Shown one piece after another: positions 16,583 through 37,013 of a stretch of 38,112 bases of DNA. The stretch comes from a virus. The stretch's first letter is position 1; each line of letters opens with the position of its first letter. The position numbers and the translations under genes are program-made. The notes under the pieces were generated by a model. That model had not been told where the DNA came from and made no database searches. It saw nothing but the letters and a program-made list of their open reading frames with translations. Location: positions 1 to 38,112 of IMG/VR virus record IMGVR_UViG_3300032331_004470. The stretch is one strand, 5' to 3'.

Positions 16583-16648
16583 GTGCGCAGGGAGACCGGG
16601 GAGGGGTCACTCGTGCGCGGGGTGTCAATACGGGGGATGGCTCGGAAG

Positions 16649-16730
16649 TTTTGACCACGGATGGCACGGATCTAACGGATAAAGGCAGGGGGATTGAATC
16701 CGTGTGATCCGTGTAATTCGTGGTGGTTTG
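16649..16730 (-). repeat. Family A palindromic element, copy 1
   Basis: About 82 bases. On the transcribed strand it opens CACCACG and closes ATCCGTGGTCAAAA, with CACGGAT-type units on one arm and ATCCGTG-type units on the other and a core close to CAATCCCCCTGCC. It begins 4 bases after the stop of the 119-aa gene; the next gene starts 66 bases on. Confidence 0.9.
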
Positions 16731-16734
16731 GAAT

Positions 16735-20776: not shown

Positions 20777-21583
20777 TTAGGAGGGGGAGGGTTCGGAATT
20801 TTTGACCACGGATGGCACGGATGGAACGGATAAAGGCACGGGGATTGAATCCGTGTGATCGGTGGTGGTTTGGGCTTGGCGGGCGGCGGCGTTGAGTTGG
20901 TTGACGCGGTCCATGCAGCGGTTGCGGAGGGAGTCGATTTCGGTGTAGTGCTTTTCCTCGGACGTGCGGGCGGCGATCGTGCGCTGATACTGGGCGAGGC
21001 GGGGGAGGGGGGTGTGCGCGAGGAGCTGGCCGCTCATGGGGTCGAGGTGGCCGAGGTCGCTGGCGACTTGGACGAGGAGGCCGCTGAGGAAATAGGTAGG
21101 TGGCTCCGGCGCGAAGGCGTCGGAGGCGGGGGTGGGGGACTCGGCGGGGGCGGTGTCGGCGCCGGGGAAGTCGGCGAACATTTTGGCGACGTAGGCGAGG
21201 AGGGCGGTGATCTGGTCGTCGTGGGGGATGCGGGAGATCCGGCGGAGGAAGCGGGTGCGGCGCCAGAGGTTGGCGAGGGTGGCTTCGTGGGTGTTGAGGG
21301 CGGCGAGTTGCCAGAGGAGGGCGGCGGAATCGAGGGGGGTGATCTCGGCGAGGGGGGCGCCGCAGACGTAGGGGTTGGCCAGGGCGTCGAGGTGGAGGAG
21401 GTCCGCCGGGGTCATCTGGCGGAGTTCTTCGCCGCAGAGGGTGTGCGTGATCTCAAGGAAGGCTTCGGTGCGGCGTTCGGTGGTGGCGCGGCGGGAGGCG
21501 GCGACTTGGGGGGCGAATTCGCGTTGCCACACTTCCTCGAAGGTCACGGGGGCAAGAGGGGGAGCGGGAGTGGAAGGGTCCAC
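20777..21583 (-). CDS. Tail assembly chaperone-position protein
   Basis: 268 aa with a GTG start. Helical protein (FEEVWQREFAPQVAASRRAT, ALLAYVAKMFADFPGADT) directly upstream of the tape measure, where gpG-type chaperones sit. The last about 29 residues (starting TTTDHTDSIPVPLSVPS) are the translation of a family A element, so the ancestral end was probably near QLNAAARQAQ. No convincing programmed-frameshift product follows. Confidence 0.6.
   Translation of the reverse strand: MDPSTPAPPLAPVTFEEVWQREFAPQVAASRRATTERRTEAFLEITHTLCGEELRQMTPADLLHLDALANPYVCGAPLAEITPLDSAALLWQLAALNTHEATLANLWRRTRFLRRISRIPHDDQITALLAYVAKMFADFPGADTAPAESPTPASDAFAPEPPTYFLSGLLVQVASDLGHLDPMSGQLLAHTPLPRLAQYQRTIAARTSEEKHYTEIDSLRNRCMDRVNQLNAAARQAQTTTDHTDSIPVPLSVPSVPSVVKNSEPSPS
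20799..20873 (-). repeat. Family A element, copy 2, inside a gene
   Basis: About 75 bases, the shortest copy, missing a block in the arm nearest the 5' end of the transcript. It is wholly inside the 3' end of the chaperone-position gene, read in frame without a stop. The tape measure starts 24 bases after it. Confidence 0.9.
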
Positions 21584-22070: not shown

Positions 22071-22147
22071 GGGAGGGCGGAAAGCGGGGGGAGGGTGGTG
22101 AGTAGGCGGGGGCCTAAAACCTTGGGGCGGGTGTCAAGGGGACGGAG

Positions 22148-22229
22148 TTTTTGACCACGGATGGCACGGATCTAACGGATAAAGGCAGGGGATTGTATCC
22201 GTGAAATCGGTGTAATCCGTGGTGGTTTG
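22148..22229 (-). repeat. Family A element, copy 3
   Basis: Full-length copy. On the transcribed strand it begins with the base next to the stop codon of the 166-aa gene. Terminal 8-base inverted repeat CCACGGAT/ATCCGTGG, inner core CAATCCCCTGCCTT. Confidence 0.92.
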
Positions 22230-23594: not shown

Positions 23595-23605
23595 GGGGAA
23601 CGGAA

Positions 23606-23690
23606 TTTTGGACCACGGATGGCACGGATCTAACGGATCAAGGCAGGGGGATTGATCCGTGTGATCGGTGTAATCCGTGGTGGGTTGGGT
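23606..23690 (-). repeat. Family A element, copy 4
   Basis: Abuts the stop of the 112-aa gene exactly. Downstream gene starts 11 bases after its GGTCCAAAA end. The centre reads ATCAATCCCCCTGCCTT on the transcribed strand. Confidence 0.9.
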
Positions 23691-24085: not shown

Positions 24086-24154
24086 GTGTTGGGCACGAAT
24101 GAACTGGGCTGGCAATAGGGGGGGGACTGTCAATGTCCCATCCCGGGCGCGGAA

Positions 24155-24239
24155 TTTTTGACCACGGATCGCACGGATCTAACGGATAAAGGCAGGGGAT
24201 TGTATCCGTGAAATCGGTGTAATCCGTGGTGGTTTGGGT
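24155..24239 (-). repeat. Family A element, copy 5
   Basis: Abuts the stop of the 243-aa cargo gene exactly. It differs from the others at one base of an arm (GATCGCACGGAT). Next gene start is 125 bases on. Confidence 0.92.
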
Positions 24240-24971
24240 TCAGCGGAGGGCGCAGTGGGCGAGGTCGATGGGGCTGATTTCGGGGGGGCGGCTCGTGCCA
24301 TCCAGGCGGAGGGTGCTGAATTCGGCGCGGAGGGTTTGACGGACGTGGATCTGCGCGATTTCGAGGCGGGCGAGGAGGAGGCTCTCGGGGTGGAAGGGGC
24401 ACTGGTAGCTGCCGAGGAGTTCGGGGATCTTCGGGTAGATGTCGAAATACGCGCGCGCGGCGGCGGGGCCCATAATGGCGAAGCGGTCGTTGAGGCCGCC
24501 GAAGCGGCCCCACCAGGGGGTGAGGCAGAAATCATCCAAGACGATTCCCGCGCATTCGGAGTCGAAGGAGTGGAAAAAAAGGTCGGGGCGGAGGCGGATG
24601 ATGGTGTCGATTTGCAGGCTGAGGGTTTCGCGGTGGCCGCAGAAGTTTTCCCACACTTGGGCCTGATACCAGTGTTGGAGGAGGAGGCGGTGGGCGGGGG
24701 CGGCGTTGGCGTAGGGGGCTTGGTGGTAGGCGGCCGAAAGGGCGGGGGTGAGGTCGGGGGTGAGGTCGGGGTCGGTGAGTTGCTGGAGGTGGACGCGGGC
24801 GGCGCCGTAGTCGGCGATGAGGGGGGCGAGGAGGTCGAGGGCGTCGGGTTGGGCTTGGACGGTGAAAAAGAAATGCGGGTCGACGAAGTGGCGGAGGACG
24901 TGCCAGCGTTGGGTGGGGTAGCACTGGGCGAAGGTGCGGAGTTGGCCGGAGTAGAGGATGGCGGTGGACAT
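24240..24971 (-). CDS. Cargo: glycosyltransferase-like protein
   Basis: 243 aa from MSTAILYSGQLRTFAQCYPT. The opening (AILYSGQLRTF), TIIRLRPDLFF and LNDRFAIMGPAAARAYFDIY follow the pattern of uncharacterised sugar-transferase-like proteins of polysaccharide clusters (the RLRPDL segment is characteristic as I recall). It is the last cargo gene. It may act on a sugar made by the neighbouring enzymes. The upstream in-frame extension is repeat-derived and is dropped. Confidence 0.65.
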   Translation of the reverse strand: MSTAILYSGQLRTFAQCYPTQRWHVLRHFVDPHFFFTVQAQPDALDLLAPLIADYGAARVHLQQLTDPDLTPDLTPALSAAYHQAPYANAAPAHRLLLQHWYQAQVWENFCGHRETLSLQIDTIIRLRPDLFFHSFDSECAGIVLDDFCLTPWWGRFGGLNDRFAIMGPAAARAYFDIYPKIPELLGSYQCPFHPESLLLARLEIAQIHVRQTLRAEFSTLRLDGTSRPPEISPIDLAHCALR

Positions 24972-24980
24972 GGTGAAGGG

Positions 24981-25015
24981 GGAGCTGAGAGCTGAGGGCT
25001 GAGAGCTAAGAGCCA
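24981..25015 (-). repeat. GAGCTGAGA micro-repeat, copy 1
   Basis: GAGCTGAGAGCTGAGGGCTG and AGAGCTAAGAGCCAG form a tandem micro-repeat between two cargo genes. It contains the TAG stop of the TPP alpha subunit. A second copy lies within that gene at 25321-25376. Confidence 0.8.
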
Positions 25016-25698
25016 GAAAGCGCGCGGAGACGGGCGATGGCTTCGGGTTTGAAGGTGACGCTGCCGGGGGGGAGGCCGGCGCCGCCGTGGGGGTAGGTGG
25101 GGGTGTAGTGGTAGCGGTAAACGCAGGCAAAGTGGTTGAGGGGTTCGCGCACTTTGCGGGCGGCGAGGGGGCCGCGGGCGCGGGTCGCTCGGTCGGCGTC
25201 GACTTGGCGGTCGTTATCTTCCACGATGAAAGTGATCGGGAGGTGGTTCGCTTCGGCGAAGAGGGCGGCTTCGTAATAGTGGCCTTGCTCTTCGGCACCG
25301 TCGCCGAGGAAGCAGTAGACGTGAGGCTGCGCCTCACGAGCTGAGAGCTGAGAGTTGAGAGCTGAGAGCTGAGCCAGTTCCCAGGCGACGCCGGCGGCGA
25401 TGCAGCAGGTGCCGGCGAGGATGGAGCTGGTGAGGAAGTTGTGCTCGCGGCTGTAGATGAACATGCTGCGGCCGGCGAGGATCTCGGCCTCGAGGTGGTC
25501 GGCGGGGATTCCTTTCAGGAGCGCGTGGTAGTGGTTGCGGTGCGTCGAGAAGACCCAGTCTTGCGGGCGGAGGCGGGAGAAGATGTCGAGGAGTTGCGTC
25601 TCGTTGCCGCCGCTGAGGTGGATGAGGCAGGGGAGCTGGCCGGCGGCGAAGTGGTCGCGGATGCGGGTTTCAAAGGCGATGAGGTCTTGAGAGGTCAT
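25006..25698 (-). CDS. Cargo: TPP enzyme E1-alpha-like subunit
   Basis: 230 aa from MTSQDLIAFETRIRDHFAAG, against about 320 aa for usual E1 alpha. SGGNETQ, FSTHRNHYHALLKG and the thiamine-diphosphate motif GDGA (132-135) through N162 (FIVEDND) are present, so this is the PP-type domain. Between AAGVAWELA and VYCFLGDGA an extra loop (about residues 110-125, QLSALNSQLSAREAQ) is coded by a GAGCTGAGA micro-repeat. It should pair with the Pyr-domain subunit at 26916. Possible reaction: decarboxylation or two-carbon transfer on a keto-acid or sugar. Confidence 0.8.
   Translation of the reverse strand: MTSQDLIAFETRIRDHFAAGQLPCLIHLSGGNETQLLDIFSRLRPQDWVFSTHRNHYHALLKGIPADHLEAEILAGRSMFIYSREHNFLTSSILAGTCCIAAGVAWELAQLSALNSQLSAREAQPHVYCFLGDGAEEQGHYYEAALFAEANHLPITFIVEDNDRQVDADRATRARGPLAARKVREPLNHFACVYRYHYTPTYPHGGAGLPPGSVTFKPEAIARLRALSGS
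25321..25376 (-). repeat. GAGCTGAGA micro-repeat, copy 2, in frame
   Basis: A short hairpin GTGAGGC-TGC-GCCTCAC is followed by five units of the type GAGCTGA(G)A, one with a T change. It lies inside the E1-alpha-like gene, in frame, immediately before the strand leading to GDGA. It adds roughly ten residues compared with the usual spacing. Confidence 0.8.
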
Positions 25699-25708
25699 GG
25701 GTGCGGAA

Positions 25709-25784
25709 TTTTTGACCACGGATGGCACGGATCTAACGGATCAAGGCAGCGGGATAGTATCCGTGAAAGCGGTGTAATCCGGGG
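25709..25784 (-). repeat. Family A element, copy 6
   Basis: Abuts the stop of the dehydrogenase gene exactly. The arm near that stop has decayed (GGATTACACCGCTTTCACGG). The E1-alpha-like gene starts 10 bases after its end. Confidence 0.88.
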
Positions 25785-26810
25785 TTAAATGGTTGCGGGC
25801 ATTTCGATCAGGATGCGGCCGGCGGAGCCGGAGCGGACGAGGTCGAGGGCGTGATTGATTTCGTCCAGGCGGAGGCGGTGCGTGACGAGGCGCGTGCTGT
25901 AGATGTCTCGCTCGGCAAGGACGCGGAGATAGCGGGGGATGTCGAGGTCGGGGCGGAAGCCTCCCCCTTGGGTGGCGCGAATGCTTTTGCCTTCGCCTTC
26001 GAAGAGGTGGCGGGCGTTGGAAATGCAGACGGGTTTTTGCGGGGCGTGTTGGCCGATCAGCACATACCGGCCGGAGGGGGCGAGGCGTTCGAGGGCGGTC
26101 TCGGTGGCGGTGGTGGCGCCGGCGGTGTCGAGAATAAGGTCGTAGGTGCCGGCAAGTTTTTCCGTGGCGAGGTTTACAAAGCTCGCGCCGGCGATTTCAG
26201 CGGGGCGGCGTTTGGCTTCGTGAATATCACATGCGCAGATTTTGGCGGGCGCGGCGAGGTGCAGCGCGGCGAGCATCGCGAGGCCGAGGCCGCCGCAGCC
26301 GAGGACGAGGACCGACTCCCCCCAGCGGGTGGCTTCGCTTTCGATCGTGGCGAGCGCGGTCGAGAGCGAGCAGCCGAGGAGGGCGCAGAGGTCGGGGTCG
26401 GTGTCCGCGGGGACGGGGGTGAGGCGGTTTTCGCTGCAGATGGAGTGCGTGGCGAGGGTGGTGACGCGGCCGCTGGTGAAGCAGGGCTCGCCCTGCACCG
26501 ATTCTACAAACCGATATTTGGGGAACGGGCTTTCGAGGCCGGCGGCTTTGCGCCAGTGCATCACGACTTTGTCGCCGACTTTGACGCGGGTGACGGCGGG
26601 GCCGACGTCTTCCACGATGCCGCAGCCTTCGTGGCCCATGAGGTGCGGGAGGGGTCCCCCTTTTTCGCCGCGGATCTCCTGGAGCTGCGCACCGCAGAGG
26701 CCGGAGACGAGCACGCGGACGAGGACTTGGCCGTAGTCGAGGGGGCCGGCGGGAGCGATCTCGGCGAGCGTGAGCGGGGCGTTGTGCGCGGTGAGGAGGG
26801 CGGCGAGCAT
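25785..26810 (-). CDS. Cargo: zinc-type alcohol dehydrogenase (MDR)
   Basis: 341 aa from MLAALLTAHNAPLTLAEIAP. Zinc ligand Cys39 (SGLCGAQ), GHE at 59-61 and the nucleotide-binding GCGGLG at 171-176 mark a medium-chain dehydrogenase. The usual structural-zinc four-Cys lobe is absent, as in sorbitol- or threonine-type sub-branches. Upstream in-frame residues come from the repeat and are dropped. With the TPP subunits on either side it may reduce or oxidise a keto sugar or alcohol. Confidence 0.88.
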   Translation of the reverse strand: MLAALLTAHNAPLTLAEIAPAGPLDYGQVLVRVLVSGLCGAQLQEIRGEKGGPLPHLMGHEGCGIVEDVGPAVTRVKVGDKVVMHWRKAAGLESPFPKYRFVESVQGEPCFTSGRVTTLATHSICSENRLTPVPADTDPDLCALLGCSLSTALATIESEATRWGESVLVLGCGGLGLAMLAALHLAAPAKICACDIHEAKRRPAEIAGASFVNLATEKLAGTYDLILDTAGATTATETALERLAPSGRYVLIGQHAPQKPVCISNARHLFEGEGKSIRATQGGGFRPDLDIPRYLRVLAERDIYSTRLVTHRLRLDEINHALDLVRSGSAGRILIEMPATI

Positions 26811-26826
26811 GGGAACGGAGTCGGAA

Positions 26827-26910
26827 TTTTTGACCACGGATGGCACGGATTTAACGGATCAAGGCAGCGGGATTGTATCCGTGGGATCTGTGTAATCCGT
26901 GGTGGTTGGG
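26827..26910 (-). repeat. Family A element, copy 7
   Basis: Between the E1-beta-like gene and the dehydrogenase. It begins 5 bases after the stop codon; the dehydrogenase starts 16 bases past its end. Confidence 0.9.
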
Positions 26911-26915
26911 GCTTT

Positions 26916-27440
26916 TCACCAGAGGTCTTTATATTCCACGAGGGCGGTGCTGTGGCCGAGGGCTTGGCGTTCGGTGGCTTGGGCGTAGGCCCATGAGATG
27001 TCGTCGGTTTGCATGAGTGGGTGCACAGGGAAGCTCACCAGGCAGCGGAGGGCGGCGGTGATGTCTTGGGTGTGGGTCGCGCCGGTGAAGAGAGGTTTTT
27101 CCGTATTGCCGACGGTGATGCGGAGGATGACGCCGGGGGTGAATTCGCCGCGGCTGATCGTGGCAAGTTTGTCGAGGTGGTTTACGATGGCGTCCATGGC
27201 GTTGAGGACGAAGTCGGCGCGTTCGAAGTAGACGACGGGTTTGCGGCCGCGGAGGGCGGCGCCGATGGCGAGGCCGACCATGAGGTTTTCGGCGACGGGG
27301 GTTTCGAGGAGTTGGGACCCGGGCACGCCGGCGAGGGTGCCGGCGGCGCGGCCGTGGGTGAGGCCGTAGCCGATGAAGAGGCGCGCGGGATCGGCGGCGA
27401 GCGACGTCATGGCGGCGGTGAGGGATTGTTTGTAATTCAT
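26916..27440 (-). CDS. Cargo: TPP enzyme Pyr-domain (E1-beta-like) subunit
   Basis: 174 aa; a normal E1 beta is about 325 aa, so the C-terminal transketolase_C-type domain is missing. LLETPVAENLMVGLAIGAAL carries the catalytic Glu (E51) that activates thiamine diphosphate; KPVVYFERADFVLNAMDAIV and GVILRITVG follow the family. Separate, minimal Pyr and PP subunits are known for sulfopyruvate or phosphonopyruvate decarboxylases and split transketolases. Starts 15 bases after the upstream gene. Confidence 0.78.
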   Translation of the reverse strand: MNYKQSLTAAMTSLAADPARLFIGYGLTHGRAAGTLAGVPGSQLLETPVAENLMVGLAIGAALRGRKPVVYFERADFVLNAMDAIVNHLDKLATISRGEFTPGVILRITVGNTEKPLFTGATHTQDITAALRCLVSFPVHPLMQTDDISWAYAQATERQALGHSTALVEYKDLW

Positions 27441-27455
27441 CGGAGGGAGCGGAAA

Positions 27456-28304
27456 TCAGAGGAGGCCGCGGTCTTTCAGGAGTTCGGGGACGAGGGACAT
27501 GTGGTTGGCGTGCATCGTGTGCTCGGGGAGGATGTCGACGCGCTCGGTGTCGAGGAGGAGGATGCGGGTTTTGATGGTGTCCGCGTTCCAGATGTTGAAG
27601 GTGGGCCAGATGGGGCCGGTGGGGACGCCGATGATGGCGTCGATGTGATCGGTGCTGAGGCGGCCGATGTCCGTGACGCTCGAGCCGAGGTCGAGGGTGC
27701 AGAGGGCGTCTTTGGTGCGGCTGGGGGCGGTGGTGTAGACGCAGTGGCCGGCGGCGTGGAGTTGGGCGATGATGCGGTCGAAGCCGTCGTGGGAGAAGGA
27801 TTGGAACTGGCCGGAATTCGGGGCGCTGTTGATGACGAGGATGCCGCGCATCCCGGTGTAGGCGGTGGTGGCGGGGGCGAGCGCGGGGTAGTCGAACAGG
27901 AGGTCGCGGGGATCGGCGCCGGCGAAGGGGCAGGCAAGACCGAGGGCGCGGCTCAGGTTCGCGAAGTGGCGGTGGTAGATGGCGACGAAATCGTGTTTGT
28001 CGGGTTGCTGGTAGAACCAGCCAGAGGCGCCGAGCCAGGTGTCGAGGGGGCCGTAGCTGTGGCAGGAGGGAAGGAGGCTGAGACCAGAGAGGCTGAGGTT
28101 GGGGAGATCGGCAGTGAGGGGGGAGAGTTGGGTGAGGTATTCGGCGCGGGAATGATGGATGAAGTGAATCTCTGGATACGACTTTGCGAGGGCGCGGAGG
28201 TAGTGGAGGGTGAGGAGGTTGTCGCCGAGGTGGTAGGCGTTAAACGTCGCGATGACGCGGGCGGGCGAGGGGACGTCGAGGGGCGGGCGGTGGGGCGCGA
28301 TCAT
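27456..28304 (-). CDS. Cargo: glycosyltransferase family 9-like protein
   Basis: 282 aa. VIATFNAYHLGDNLLTLHYL and RALAKSYPEIHFIHH match the GT9/heptosyltransferase N-terminal domain (GDxLLTxxxLRAL). A second Rossmann-like half (GILVINSAPNSGQFQSF, then VPTGPIWPTFNIWNAD) is present. Would transfer a heptose-like or other sugar from a nucleotide donor. Confidence 0.72.
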   Translation of the reverse strand: MIAPHRPPLDVPSPARVIATFNAYHLGDNLLTLHYLRALAKSYPEIHFIHHSRAEYLTQLSPLTADLPNLSLSGLSLLPSCHSYGPLDTWLGASGWFYQQPDKHDFVAIYHRHFANLSRALGLACPFAGADPRDLLFDYPALAPATTAYTGMRGILVINSAPNSGQFQSFSHDGFDRIIAQLHAAGHCVYTTAPSRTKDALCTLDLGSSVTDIGRLSTDHIDAIIGVPTGPIWPTFNIWNADTIKTRILLLDTERVDILPEHTMHANHMSLVPELLKDRGLL

Positions 28305-28313
28305 GACTCGGAA

Positions 28314-28398
28314 TTTTTAACCACGGAGAGCACGGATTTAACGGATCAAGGCAGGGGGATTGTATCCGTGAAATCGGTGTAATCCGTGGTGGTTTGGG
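28314..28398 (-). repeat. Family A element, copy 8
   Basis: Abuts the stop of the GT-A-like gene exactly. The next gene starts 10 bases on. Its outer arm reads GAGAGCACGGATTT, slightly diverged. Confidence 0.9.
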
Positions 28399-29292
28399 TC
28401 ACTTGCCCGCGCCGGGCTGGTGGGCGAGGGCGGCGGTGAGTTTCGCGCGGTCCACGGCGGGGTTGCCGCTTTTGATCATGGCCACGGTGGCGTCGACCAG
28501 CTCGGTGATCGGCGGCGGAAAGAGGAGGCGGCCGAGGTGGCGGAGTTTGATGTTCGTGTCGCCGACGACTTTGCCGCCGAGTTCGCGCCAATACTCGCAG
28601 ACCATCCAATCCTCGCTTTGCCAGTTTTTCAGGCCGTCCTTGGGGTCGATGTCGCCGTGCACGCCGCTGGTGAAGTAGGCGTAAAACTTTTCGCCGGGCC
28701 ACGGTGTGTTGGGCGCGCAGCGGTAGGGTTTGACGTTGGGGTGGGTGCGGAGAGTGGTGAGCACGCTGCGATTCCACGCCATGCAGCCGGTGGCGCCGTG
28801 GAGGAGGGCGATCAGGCCGGTCTCGGGGTCGGGTTTGGCGCCGGGGATGATGTTGGCGACGAAGGTGGGCTGGAGACACTTCATGGCGTAGAAGCCGCAG
28901 ACGAAGGGGTGGCCTTTCTGCAGGTGGATGTAGAGGCGCATGATGTCTTGCGGCTCCATGGGGATATCGGCATCCCACCACAGGCAGAACTTGGTGAGGT
29001 TTTCGCGCTCCCACATGTTGGCAAGGACGTTGCGGGCGCGGTCGATGTGGCTATCGTTGGGGAGGCTAAGGCGGTGCGAGATTAGCGACATGAGCTCGAC
29101 GGAGCCGTCGGGCTGGCGAAACCAGGCGCGGGCTTCGCGGCAGGCGGTGAGGCTGTTGTGGTAATACTCCGTGAGGGAGTAATCGTAGCAGGGGGTGAGG
29201 ATCGTGATGCGGTCGCGGGCATCGAAGATCTGGGCGCCGGCGGGGGGGGTGAGGGCGGGCTGAGCCGCCGCGGGGAGTGCGGGAGTGTTCAT
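28399..29292 (-). CDS. Cargo: GT-A-type glycosyltransferase
   Basis: 297 aa. ITILTPCYDYSLTEYYHNSL, a SHIDRARNVLANMWE block and the DxD motif D107-A-D109 (CLWWDADIPM) give a GT-A fold. Later, ATGCMAWNRSV and QSEDWMVCEYWRELGG resemble the acceptor side of family 2 enzymes. It is the first cargo gene after the capsid gene, separated by a terminator. Upstream in-frame start at 29325 is less likely than the ATG at 29292. Confidence 0.78.
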   Translation of the reverse strand: MNTPALPAAAQPALTPPAGAQIFDARDRITILTPCYDYSLTEYYHNSLTACREARAWFRQPDGSVELMSLISHRLSLPNDSHIDRARNVLANMWERENLTKFCLWWDADIPMEPQDIMRLYIHLQKGHPFVCGFYAMKCLQPTFVANIIPGAKPDPETGLIALLHGATGCMAWNRSVLTTLRTHPNVKPYRCAPNTPWPGEKFYAYFTSGVHGDIDPKDGLKNWQSEDWMVCEYWRELGGKVVGDTNIKLRHLGRLLFPPPITELVDATVAMIKSGNPAVDRAKLTAALAHQPGAGK

Positions 29293-29331
29293 GAGTGCAA
29301 TGGGGCGCGGCGTGTCAAGTAGCACCCACCC

Positions 29332-29432
29332 AGTAGCGAGTAGCGGGTAGCGGGTAGTGAGTAGTTAATTTCAGAGCGGCGGAGCCGCAGGAAGGAGGGA
29401 TGCTCGCTACTCGCTACTCGCTGCTCGCTACT
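29332..29432. repeat. Palindromic element, family E (AGTAGCG)
   Basis: One arm repeats AGTAGCGAGTAGCGGG, the other repeats CTCGCTACTCGCTACT. The loop of about 35 bases itself contains a GCGGCGGAGCCGC hairpin. Located between the capsid terminator and the first cargo gene. Confidence 0.88.
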
Positions 29433-30491: not shown

Positions 30492-30565
30492 TGGTTGCAC
30501 CGGCGGGAGTTGAACCCGCAGCTTCAGGTTATGAGCCTGACGAGTTGCCGTTACTCTACGGGGCG
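30492..30565 (-). tRNA. tRNA-Met (CAT), initiator-like
   Basis: 74 bases with encoded CCA. Anticodon stem TCAGG/CCTGA, loop CTCATAA with anticodon CAT (30531-30533); T-arm GCGGG-TTCAACT-CCCGC; D-stem GAGT/ACTC. Base 1 is C opposite A72 (unpaired) and the D-stem has A11-U24, both marks of initiator tRNAs. The third, three G-C pairs in the anticodon stem, is broken by A29-U41. C4 faces U69, another mismatch in the acceptor stem. Six bases separate its 5' end from the scaffold stop, so it is cotranscribed with capsid genes. Confidence 0.9.
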
Positions 30566-34317: not shown

Positions 34318-34392
34318 TTTTGACCACGGATGGCACGGATGGCACGGATAAAGGCAGGGGGATTGGATTCGTCTGATCGGTGTAATCCGTGG
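34318..34392 (-). repeat. Family A element, copy 9
   Basis: Abuts the stop of the terminase nuclease gene. GGCACGGATGGCACGGAT shows a simple doubling of the micro-repeat in one arm. Confidence 0.88.
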
Positions 34393-35073
34393 TTAAGATT
34401 GAAGGGCTAAGGGGGGAGCGGGATCGGTAAGGGTTTCGGCGCCGGTGAGGCCGAGGGCGGTGGCGACGACGACTTGCATGGCTTCGCAGTCGTCGGCGTG
34501 GTCGTCTTTTTGGCCGTGCCAGACGTAATGGTGGCTGCCATCGGGGTTTTCGATGCGTTTGCGGTAGTGGGCGTTGATTTGCTTGAAATACCAGTCGGGG
34601 GCGTCGCTCGCGGCGGTCCAGACGGGTTCGCCGGTGGGGGTTTTGGCTTCGGGGGAGCGGAGGGCGTGGAGGCGGTTGAGGGCGGAGTTTTTTGAAAAGA
34701 GGGTTTCGACGACGCAGGAGCCGGTGGCGCCTTGGAGAAGGGTGCCGGTGTAGGCGTCGATGATCTTGGGCTCGGCGTAGATACGGCGGATGCCGTCGGG
34801 GTGGGCGTAGTCGCGTTCGGCTTTGTCGCCCATCATGGTTCTCCAGCCCATGCGGGCGCAGATGGTGCGGACGCGTTGGGTGTCGTGACGGACGTCGAGG
34901 GCGATGAGGTGGGGGGGCACGCCTTCTTCCGAGCAGATGCGGGCGATTTCCGAGGGGCTGAAGGCGATGAAGGCGAGGTGGAGGCGGCTGGCGCTGTAGC
35001 GGCCCCACTTGCGGATGACGGCGACGTAGTGGTCGAGCTGGACGTCGATGGTGCAGATGAGGGTGGGGGGCAT
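34393..35073 (-). CDS. terL-C: Terminase large subunit, nuclease half
   Basis: 226 aa. It opens TLICTIDVQLDHYVAVIRKW, the start of the gpA-type nuclease domain (Asp10 in the metal site). Ends with KDDHADDCEAMQVVVATALG, the final acidic motif. The domain is complete but lacks any ATPase part, which is coded separately at 35176. The two frames are in phase, 102 bases apart, with a palindromic element between. The nuclease would cut concatemers during packaging. Confidence 0.85.
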   Translation of the reverse strand: MPPTLICTIDVQLDHYVAVIRKWGRYSASRLHLAFIAFSPSEIARICSEEGVPPHLIALDVRHDTQRVRTICARMGWRTMMGDKAERDYAHPDGIRRIYAEPKIIDAYTGTLLQGATGSCVVETLFSKNSALNRLHALRSPEAKTPTGEPVWTAASDAPDWYFKQINAHYRKRIENPDGSHHYVWHGQKDDHADDCEAMQVVVATALGLTGAETLTDPAPPLALQS

Positions 35074-35175: not shown

Positions 35176-36345
35176 TTACTCTCCGGTCCACGCTTCCCGC
35201 ATTTTGTAGGGGGTGGGGTGTTGGTGTTTGGATTGGTTTTCGGGGCGGTGGTAGTATTCGGGGTCCCAGGTGTCGGCGTCGCGTTTGAGGACGATTTGTT
35301 CGAGGAGCGTGACCGTGCCGAGGGTGGTGCGTTCGCGTTCGGCGTTGACCATTTCGCAGGCGATCACGGCCCAGCTGCTAAAGGGGATGCCGCTGATCCA
35401 CCAGCCGATGGTGCGGGGGGTGGTGGAGGGGGTGGGGTTGAGGGGGATCCAGCGGCCTCGGGGTTTGTCGGCGGTGCCGTTCATGGCGAGGCGCGTGGCG
35501 GGGGTGTCGGGGTGGCGGTGGCGGCAGTGGGGGCATTGGTAGGCGACGGTGGGGGCGATGCGGGCGTTATCGGCGAGGCCGCGGGGGGTATGGTGGGTTT
35601 CGTAGACGATGCCGCCGGTGCGTTCGCCGGTGGTGGGGTCTTTGTGGGTGCGGCGGGGGACGAAGTGGGTGCCGCAGGCGGGGCAGAGGGGGTGCCAGGT
35701 GCGTTGGTCGGAGGCTTGAAAGTATTGGTCGGCTTCGGAGCCGGCGGCGGTGCCGGTGAGCATGTGGATTTCGCGCCAGGTGCCTTGTTCGCTGTAGGAT
35801 TCGCGGCGTTTGGCGATGTCGGCGCACCAGCCGGGGTCGTAGGTCCAGGATTCGTCGAGGTAGAGGTCGCGGGCGGTCTTGGATTGGCGTTGGAGTTTGA
35901 TGCCGGCGGAGCGGAAGAGGAAGTTGTGGCCGGCGGGGAATTGGAGGCGGGTGCGGGCGCGTTTGTTGGGGTCGGCGTAGAGGAGGGGGTGGAGGATGGG
36001 GAGGGCGTCGAAGAGGGGGTTGAATTTTTCGTCGCAGAAGTCGTCGATGGCTTTCTCGGGGTGGGAATACCAGAGGGAGGGGCCGGGGTTCACGAGCATG
36101 GAGCGCGTGGCGTAGAGCTGGCCGACGAGGGTCTTGATGAGTTGGGTGGCGCCGCGGATGATGAAGCGAGTGCCGGGGGTGCGGTCGATGGTGTCGAGGA
36201 TGTCGGGGGCGATGGGGAGGTCGAGGGCGTCCATGATGGTGGGGACGCCGGCGAGGTGTTTGCGGGCGAAGGCGAGGGTGGATTTGCGGCGGAGGGGGGC
36301 GAGATCCGCGGGGGAGAGGCCGTAGGCGCTGGGGGGCGCGATCAT
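35176..36345 (-). CDS. terL-N: Terminase large subunit, ATPase half
   Basis: 389 aa. gpA-type: RGATQLIKT at 64-72 in the Walker A position, DLYLDES (160-166, Walker B), and a zinc-binding pair CPAC (221-224) and CPHC (271-274). Ends EAWTGE just at the usual ATPase-nuclease border, followed by TAA. The ATG overlaps the methyltransferase stop as ATGA. It should drive DNA into proheads with the nuclease polypeptide supplied in trans. Confidence 0.88.
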   Translation of the reverse strand: MIAPPSAYGLSPADLAPLRRKSTLAFARKHLAGVPTIMDALDLPIAPDILDTIDRTPGTRFIIRGATQLIKTLVGQLYATRSMLVNPGPSLWYSHPEKAIDDFCDEKFNPLFDALPILHPLLYADPNKRARTRLQFPAGHNFLFRSAGIKLQRQSKTARDLYLDESWTYDPGWCADIAKRRESYSEQGTWREIHMLTGTAAGSEADQYFQASDQRTWHPLCPACGTHFVPRRTHKDPTTGERTGGIVYETHHTPRGLADNARIAPTVAYQCPHCRHRHPDTPATRLAMNGTADKPRGRWIPLNPTPSTTPRTIGWWISGIPFSSWAVIACEMVNAERERTTLGTVTLLEQIVLKRDADTWDPEYYHRPENQSKHQHPTPYKMREAWTGE

Positions 36346-37013
36346 GGGGTGAAGAGATTGCTTTGCGTGAGTTCTTCACGAATACGATCGATGGCCGTGG
36401 CAAAGTAGATCGGGTCGCGCTCGCATCCGATGAATTTCCGGCCCGTGCGTAGGCAGGCGATTCCGGTGGTGGCGCTGCCCATAAAGTGGTCGACGACGGT
36501 GTCGCCTTCATCGCTGACGGTTTCCACCAGCCAGCACATGACGGGAAGCGGCTTTTGGCACGGGTGGAGGGGCATGTCGCCGTTGTAAGCGAGTTTCTTC
36601 CATTCGCGCACGTAGGGCGGTGGAGGACTGACGACGATGGGTTCACGATCGGCGCCACCGGGCCGGACGTTGCTTTTGCGATAGTGCAAAACCGCGGGCT
36701 GTGGCATCGCGGCGCAAAGTTCTTCGCATTTTCCAATCGGCGCAAAGGCTGCGACGCGCTTGGGAGCGTTGAGCAGCGCAAGCCAATCGAGCGACCACAC
36801 ATCCCACGCGGGTTTTTCATGCTTCGCGGAAAACTCTCCGGCCTTTTTTCCGCCGCGGACCCAGCCCGTGCCGTAGGGTTGATCGGTGATGTAGACGAGG
36901 CCCGGCGCGAGAGTGGGAAGCATCTCCGTGCAATCGCAGTTGTAGAGTTCAACGCGGCCGCATTTGGAAACCCACACGAAGGGGCGAGTATCTGTTGTGC
37001 AACTACCGGTCAT
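36342..37013 (-). CDS. DNA methyltransferase, beta-class, DQPY variant
   Basis: 223 aa. YITDQPYGTG (42-50) has Gln where the catalytic motif usually has Pro, HPCQKP is at 150-155 and DHFMGSATTG at 175-184. Order again beta-class. Located between small and large terminase, where other phages carry HNH endonucleases. May mark DNA before packaging. Catalytic status is uncertain because of the variant motif. Confidence 0.85.
   Translation of the reverse strand: MTGSCTTDTRPFVWVSKCGRVELYNCDCTEMLPTLAPGLVYITDQPYGTGWVRGGKKAGEFSAKHEKPAWDVWSLDWLALLNAPKRVAAFAPIGKCEELCAAMPQPAVLHYRKSNVRPGGADREPIVVSPPPPYVREWKKLAYNGDMPLHPCQKPLPVMCWLVETVSDEGDTVVDHFMGSATTGIACLRTGRKFIGCERDPIYFATAIDRIREELTQSNLFTP

Follow-up and report, generated by a model that had tools for sequence, protein, structure and literature searches.

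A candidate sugar-tailoring cassette with a minimal split thiamine-diphosphate enzyme behind a presumed phage capsid gene

What would a phage do with a thiamine-diphosphate (TPP) enzyme, a zinc dehydrogenase and glycosyltransferase-like genes in the middle of its structural block? The question is raised by IMG/VR virus record IMGVR_UViG_3300032331_004470, the whole of which (38,112 bases) is called the window here. Directly after the presumed major capsid gene the window carries a cassette of six intact open reading frames, all on the minus strand (24240-29292, Table 1). An earlier note, made from the sequence of this DNA, had described a sugar-type cargo operon and proposed it as a candidate for a new phage system. 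We suggest that the cassette is a sugar-tailoring module, expressed along with the structural genes, which would carry out oxidation, two-carbon branching and glycan transfer, likeliest onto a virion protein; we give this reading a probability of about 45%.

The split thiamine-diphosphate enzyme and its cassette

Two of the genes, PP and PYR, encode the halves of a TPP enzyme whose closest sequence kin is pyruvate dehydrogenase (PDH) E1. PP matches E1_dh in Pfam (5.8e-14), phrog_34187 (5.5e-59) and PDB chain 1ni4_A (3e-21). PYR matches the E1-beta N-terminal domain in NCBIfam (1.3e-13), phrog_34187 (1.9e-45) and residues 5-175 of the 329 residues of 3exe_B (9.2e-18). On the phrog_34187 profile PP covers positions 6-194 and PYR positions 237-391, and these matches bear out the split minimal enzyme (174 + 230 amino acids) described in the earlier note. 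The TPP motifs of E1-alpha and of E1-beta are both present in the pair, and Glu51 of PYR is invariant and aligns with the catalytic region of E1-beta.

Both proteins break off at the point where E1-alpha and E1-beta would continue into their C-terminal halves. In the Pfam scan PYR had no match to transketolase_C, the C-terminal half of E1-beta, and there was no E2 or E3 among the window proteins scanned. The structure model of a fused homologue (predicted local distance difference test, pLDDT, 83) matches the fold shared by transketolase, 1-deoxyxylulose-5-phosphate synthase (DXPS) and E1. Since only the cofactor-binding domains are left and the C-terminal half of E1-beta has gone, the sequence argues for a stand-alone carboligase rather than a component of a dehydrogenase complex. 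In cyanophages S-SM2 and P-TIM68 the phrog_34187 protein is a single fused chain, whereas the window has two genes with the dehydrogenase gene between them; split forms are also found in loci L009-L026, L029 and L135. A CTCAGCTCTCAG-type repeat lies in frame inside the PP gene at about 25321-25380, where it extends a loop that carries different, shorter inserts in L009 and L010, and it is found again downstream at about 25000.

L009 and L010 are the only two close relatives of the window. The earlier note had considered that relatives might lack the genes or that the frames might be decaying, but both relatives have all six genes intact, in the same order and with the same flanking genes. For most cassette genes the ratio of nonsynonymous to synonymous substitution (dN/dS) among the window, L009 and L010 is mostly 0.16-0.39, with one PYR pair at 0.70, and the genes are under purifying selection. 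A further run, in L135, comprises a GT9-like gene, PYR, a gene for 216 amino acids, the dehydrogenase, PP, GTC and a relative of GTA, at 28-62% identity, and its capsid is from a different family (phrog_617/10). Because the full set recurs in L135, the outer two genes are part of the set and not chance neighbours. The search for the set in other phages, which the earlier note had proposed, thus found it complete in L009, L010 and L135, a wider spread than was then known.

Judged by profile scans, the TPP pair forms a family found mainly in viruses and rarely in the sampled cellular genomes. With the E1-alpha-like half, the best 80 of up to 544 IMG/VR stretches were kept, and there were at least 13 matches in 84,980 prokaryote genomes. 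In evenly drawn genome samples membership was set at E <= 1e-40; scores exceed 230 bits for the family and stay under 110 bits for ordinary E1-alpha. Verrucomicrobiota had members in 2 of 338 genomes, the phylum of the Prochlorococcus genome in 1 of 244 and that of the Pelagibacteraceae genome in 2 of 349; as each sample includes its own centre genome, 2 of 928 is left as the independent count. One of these two, L126, belongs to a clade of mostly cellular members that has neither alcohol dehydrogenase (ADH) nor radical S-adenosylmethionine (SAM) genes, and in which a GHMP kinase or a DegT aminotransferase is close by in some members. In the mostly cellular clade of L036, L037 and L039 the TPP genes neighbour a GHMP sugar kinase, and in L036 and L039 also a DegT aminotransferase, with neither ADH nor radical SAM, which points to a sugar pathway akin to this one but distinct.

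PP and PYR occur together in nearly all loci, and glycan genes are found in most of them, the neighbours including CTP_transf_like, NAD-epimerase, GT10, GT11, short-chain dehydrogenase/reductase and methyltransferase genes. In L029 (LR756501.1, a 735-kb phage) PYR, a radical SAM/SPASM gene and PP are accompanied by two C-methyltransferases and a multi-domain GT47/GT25 protein.

Exchange of the dehydrogenase for a radical-SAM enzyme

The gene between the TPP halves was correctly named a zinc-type dehydrogenase. Its product matches ADH_N (2.5e-15), ADH_zinc_N (2.8e-8) and phrog_2640 (9e-70), has a GroES-like domain, Cys39, GHEG at 59 and GxGxxG at 171, and is 52% identical to a protein of Synechococcus phage S-SM2.

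Among 49 dereplicated loci with TPP genes, the zinc ADH is present in 23, a radical-SAM gene in 17 and both in none. Under independence the hypergeometric probability of no overlap is 5e-7, a figure to be read with the descent that relates the loci. L066 was considered as a locus with both and was rejected, its supposed radical-SAM gene (family 49) being a GHMP kinase. On the concatenated PP and PYR tree, a single FastTree tree with some weak nodes, the state switches at least four times; L050 and L061, which have radical SAM, are nested within the cyanophage-like ADH clade. The two genes also share positions. Phages with a phrog_1005 capsid have ADH (L043-L045) or radical SAM (L059) in the same slot, and the slot between PYR and PP holds ADH in the window, L009, L010 and L135 and radical SAM in L012 and L029.

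The radical-SAM profile matches the structures of MoaA, SuiB, BlsE, DesII and BtrN among others, and BlsE, DesII and BtrN are active on sugars or cyclitols. BtrN carries out the two-electron oxidation of a cyclitol (PMC9012708). We infer by analogy that the ADH and the radical-SAM enzyme both turn an alcohol into a ketone, the radical-SAM enzyme, unrelated to the ADH, probably doing the same job. The repeated exchange narrows the reaction to a step within reach of both.

Proposed function, target and alternatives

The glycosyltransferase-like genes of the cassette are of unequal standing. GTA matches a glycosyltransferase family (phrog_34859, 4.1e-5) and a family of unknown function (phrog_1574, 1.8e-7); it is 93-96% identical in L009 and L010, has a 28% relative within the L135 cassette and shows dN/dS of 0.16-0.20. 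The GT9-like protein had no match in Pfam, NCBIfam, PHROG or PDB. From its motifs and its recurrence beside TPP genes it is probably a glycosyltransferase, its homologues adjoining them in L009, L010, L135, L012-L018, L045, L050, L055, L079 and L088. GTC has a weak link to phrog_13607 (4.4e-4), is 77-98% identical in L009 and L010 and 46% in the L135 cassette, and gave an unusable structure model (pLDDT 38). PDB profile searches with all three proteins returned chance-level matches only. The three glycosyltransferases of the earlier note are therefore reduced to one with PHROG support, one assigned by motif and one of unproven fold.

In the proposed pathway the oxidoreductase, zinc ADH here and radical SAM in other phages, would convert a sugar hydroxyl to a ketone. 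A heteromer of PP and PYR would decarboxylate a 2-oxo acid, probably pyruvate, and pass the two-carbon unit to the ketone, so that the sugar becomes C-branched. Transfer or extension of the glycan would fall to the GT-A-like and GT9-like proteins, with GTC perhaps taking part; the capsid or another virion protein is the likeliest acceptor and the host surface the second. The window phage is without recognised nucleotide-sugar synthesis genes, so the substrate would be a host nucleotide sugar or an attached glycan. The branched or two-carbon-modified sugar already suggested for the locus is the best-supported reading, given the TPP truncation, the sugar-gene context and the characterised or proposed E1-like pairs without E2, while the sequence of its reactions and the identity of donor, sugar, product and acceptor are what we infer from converging genomic evidence that makes the proposal plausible.

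The major capsid gene is closely followed by the cassette, on the same strand, in five families of capsid (the A5 group of the window, phrog_1005, phrog_283, phrog_617/10 and phrog_771/264). Profile comparison of A5 with A6 and A7 capsids found no kinship, so common ancestry of the capsids, as far as detectable, does not account for the shared position. Late co-expression would favour a virion target for the sugar, and the virion glycosylation that the earlier note read from the placement gains from this recurrence, its target staying a prediction. More doubtful is the wider claim that this is a widespread virus-borne system in which virion glycans receive a two-carbon-branched sugar from a minimal E1-like carboligase that is largely confined to viruses and is fed by an interchangeable ketone-forming enzyme (NAD-type Zn-ADH or radical SAM), the genes riding behind the capsid gene of unrelated phages.

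Several points weigh against the sugar-tailoring reading or its parts. Two of the three glycosyltransferase calls are without library support, and some nodes behind the tally of switches are weak. A ketol donor is possible, transketolase and DXPS being among the nearest solved folds. The ADH might also act after the TPP step and reduce the branch, by analogy with Pau7 in the paulomycin pathway. The cassette is away from the capsid gene in the cyanophages, L029 and L079, so virion targeting would not be general.

The cyanophage relatives sit in lipopolysaccharide (LPS)-type clusters (PMC3037559), so the destination of the sugar may differ among phages. They also count for the strongest alternative, host-surface conversion, in which the cassette would alter the host LPS or capsule during infection and block superinfection or the binding of released virions. 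We consider this unlikely for the window. O-antigen conversion of the gtrABC type needs a membrane flippase and a polyprenol-linked transferase, but there is no look-alike of either in the cassette, where the 19-residue hydropathy maximum is 2.11 in the nucleotide-binding region of the ADH and at most 1.64 elsewhere. The lack of a membrane-type protein weakens O-antigen conversion, and the genes are in the late structural block beside the capsid genes, not in a lysogeny region.

PDH E1 subunits are the closest solved relatives of the TPP pair and the ADH is similar to general class III-type dehydrogenases, which would fit auxiliary genes that boost pyruvate or acetoin metabolism. This is improbable, however, with the C-terminal regions of E1-alpha and E1-beta missing, no E2 or E3 partner among the scanned window proteins, and glycan genes beside most loci. 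Phage glycosyltransferases are able to modify DNA (PMC12619734), and the sugar might be built for and attached to modified bases. Hypermodification of this kind is very improbable here, since the scanned proteins, a subset of the window genes, include no hydroxymethyl-pyrimidine, TET-like or base-kinase gene. Gaps in late operons are common insertion sites, and the cassette might be a neutral passenger that landed where insertion after the capsid gene is tolerated. Stuffer DNA was raised for the cyanophage LPS clusters (PMC3037559), but for this cassette it is the least probable explanation, as the frames are intact, dN/dS is mostly low, four phages have the same set, PP and PYR are paired in nearly all loci and ADH and radical SAM are exclusive.

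Genomic setting and known systems

Upstream of the cassette the order is terminase-like genes, a gene for 520 amino acids, a head maturation protease (phrog_53, 4.4e-55), a scaffold-like gene and the capsid-like gene; downstream are conserved small genes and a tail protein. The capsid-like gene and the head-tail joining genes had no library match, and PDB profile searches with the capsid protein gave chance-level matches only. The placement between capsid and head-tail joining genes in the earlier note is thus right in outline, with both identities taken from gene order. Homologues of the capsid protein are at the same place in L009 and L010. As a single-sequence query it found no further relatives, and the next structural gene found L009 and L010 only, hence there was no sister phage lacking the cassette with which to compare an empty site.

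A stem-loop element of about 70-90 bases (CCACGGAT...ATCCGTGG; -32.5 kcal/mol, z -7.5) occurs in nine copies, all in a single orientation. In the cargo block the copies are intergenic and immediately ahead of the next start codon. The sites partly differ in L009, and L010 has two weak copies only. Similar elements in 10 of 289 Verrucomicrobiota genomes hint at that phylum as the host of the window phage.

Table 1. Positions of the cassette genes and other features in the window
Feature	Position	Strand	Remarks
GTA, GT-A-type glycosyltransferase-like protein, 297 aa from ATG	28399..29292	-	WWDADIP DxD motif; PHROG matches
GT9-like protein, probable glycosyltransferase, 282 aa	27456..28304	-	motifs LGDNL, TGPxWPTFN; no library confirmation
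PYR, TPP pyrimidine-binding half, PDH E1-beta N-domain-like, 174 aa	26916..27440	-	catalytic Glu51 conserved
Zn-dependent medium-chain alcohol dehydrogenase, 341 aa	25785..26810	-	between the two TPP halves
PP, TPP diphosphate-binding half, PDH E1-alpha-like, 230 aa	25006..25698	-	GDG...EDN motif at 132-162
GTC, 243-aa cassette protein, GT-like by motif only	24240..24971	-	SGQLR...RLRPDLF...NDRFAIMG
Presumed major capsid protein, 299 aa	29513..30412	-	adjoins cassette upstream; gene order
GTAGCGAGTAGCGAG-type repeats	29330-29430		fill gap between capsid gene and cassette
tRNA-Met (CAT) gene	30492-30565		between scaffold-like and capsid-like genes
DNA methyltransferase	36342-37013		elsewhere in window
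Stem-loop copies in or near cargo block	24150-24239, 28309-28399, 26822-26911, 25704-25785
Stem-loop copies at other sites	23601-23690, 22143-22229, 20794-20864, 16643-16731, 34318-34393

As a system never seen before, the locus does not stand: two cultured cyanophages already have annotated ADH and TPP genes, and both genes belong to PHROG families. In Synechococcus phage S-SM2 and Prochlorococcus phage P-TIM68 homologous neighbours encode a TPP enzyme (about 44-50% identity) and a zinc ADH (49-52%). These phages differ from the window in that they are T4-like with 190-kb genomes, the TPP halves are fused in one chain of about 402 amino acids, and the genes lie in a large LPS-type cluster of epimerases, nucleotidyltransferases and glycosyltransferases that is not beside the capsid gene. 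The proposed pathway, if right, would give a testable function for these cyanophage 'LPS' genes, left as functional or stuffer DNA in PMC3037559. No earlier description of the combined system was found in the open-access literature, papers beyond it not being excluded; in the open-access papers searched, neither the module common to these phages nor the swap of ADH and radical SAM nor the position beside the capsid gene appears to have been described.

PDH E1-alpha/beta-like pairs without E2 are known from other glycan pathways. AviB1/AviB2 (avilamycin) and Pau11/Pau12 (paulomycin; PMC4425429), and EvdU5/EvdS3 (everninomicin; PMC10338323), have been proposed or genetically implicated in two-carbon branching of sugars, with a keto-sugar as the proposed acceptor of the two-carbon unit, and for avilamycin and paulomycin the two-carbon loading is proposed once the sugar is already attached (PMC4425429, PMC10338323). 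Compared by description, Pau11 and Pau12 are actinobacterial and near full length (325 and 345 amino acids), unlike the phage pair of 230 and 174. YerE (yersiniose) is also a proposed TPP-dependent enzyme of two-carbon branching, acting on a keto-sugar of a surface polysaccharide, but it is a single-chain flavoprotein of the acetolactate-synthase type and belongs to another TPP family.

In mycobacteriophages Che8, Corndog and Myrna the phages' own glycosyltransferases are reported to act on capsid and tail-tube proteins, in passages that mention no TPP enzyme or radical-SAM/ADH step (PMC12363180, PMC12619734). If our reading is true, phages in several unrelated lineages bring, beside the capsid gene, their own chemistry for an unusual sugar and not glycosyltransferases alone, and virion glycosylation outside the mycobacteriophages becomes directly testable.

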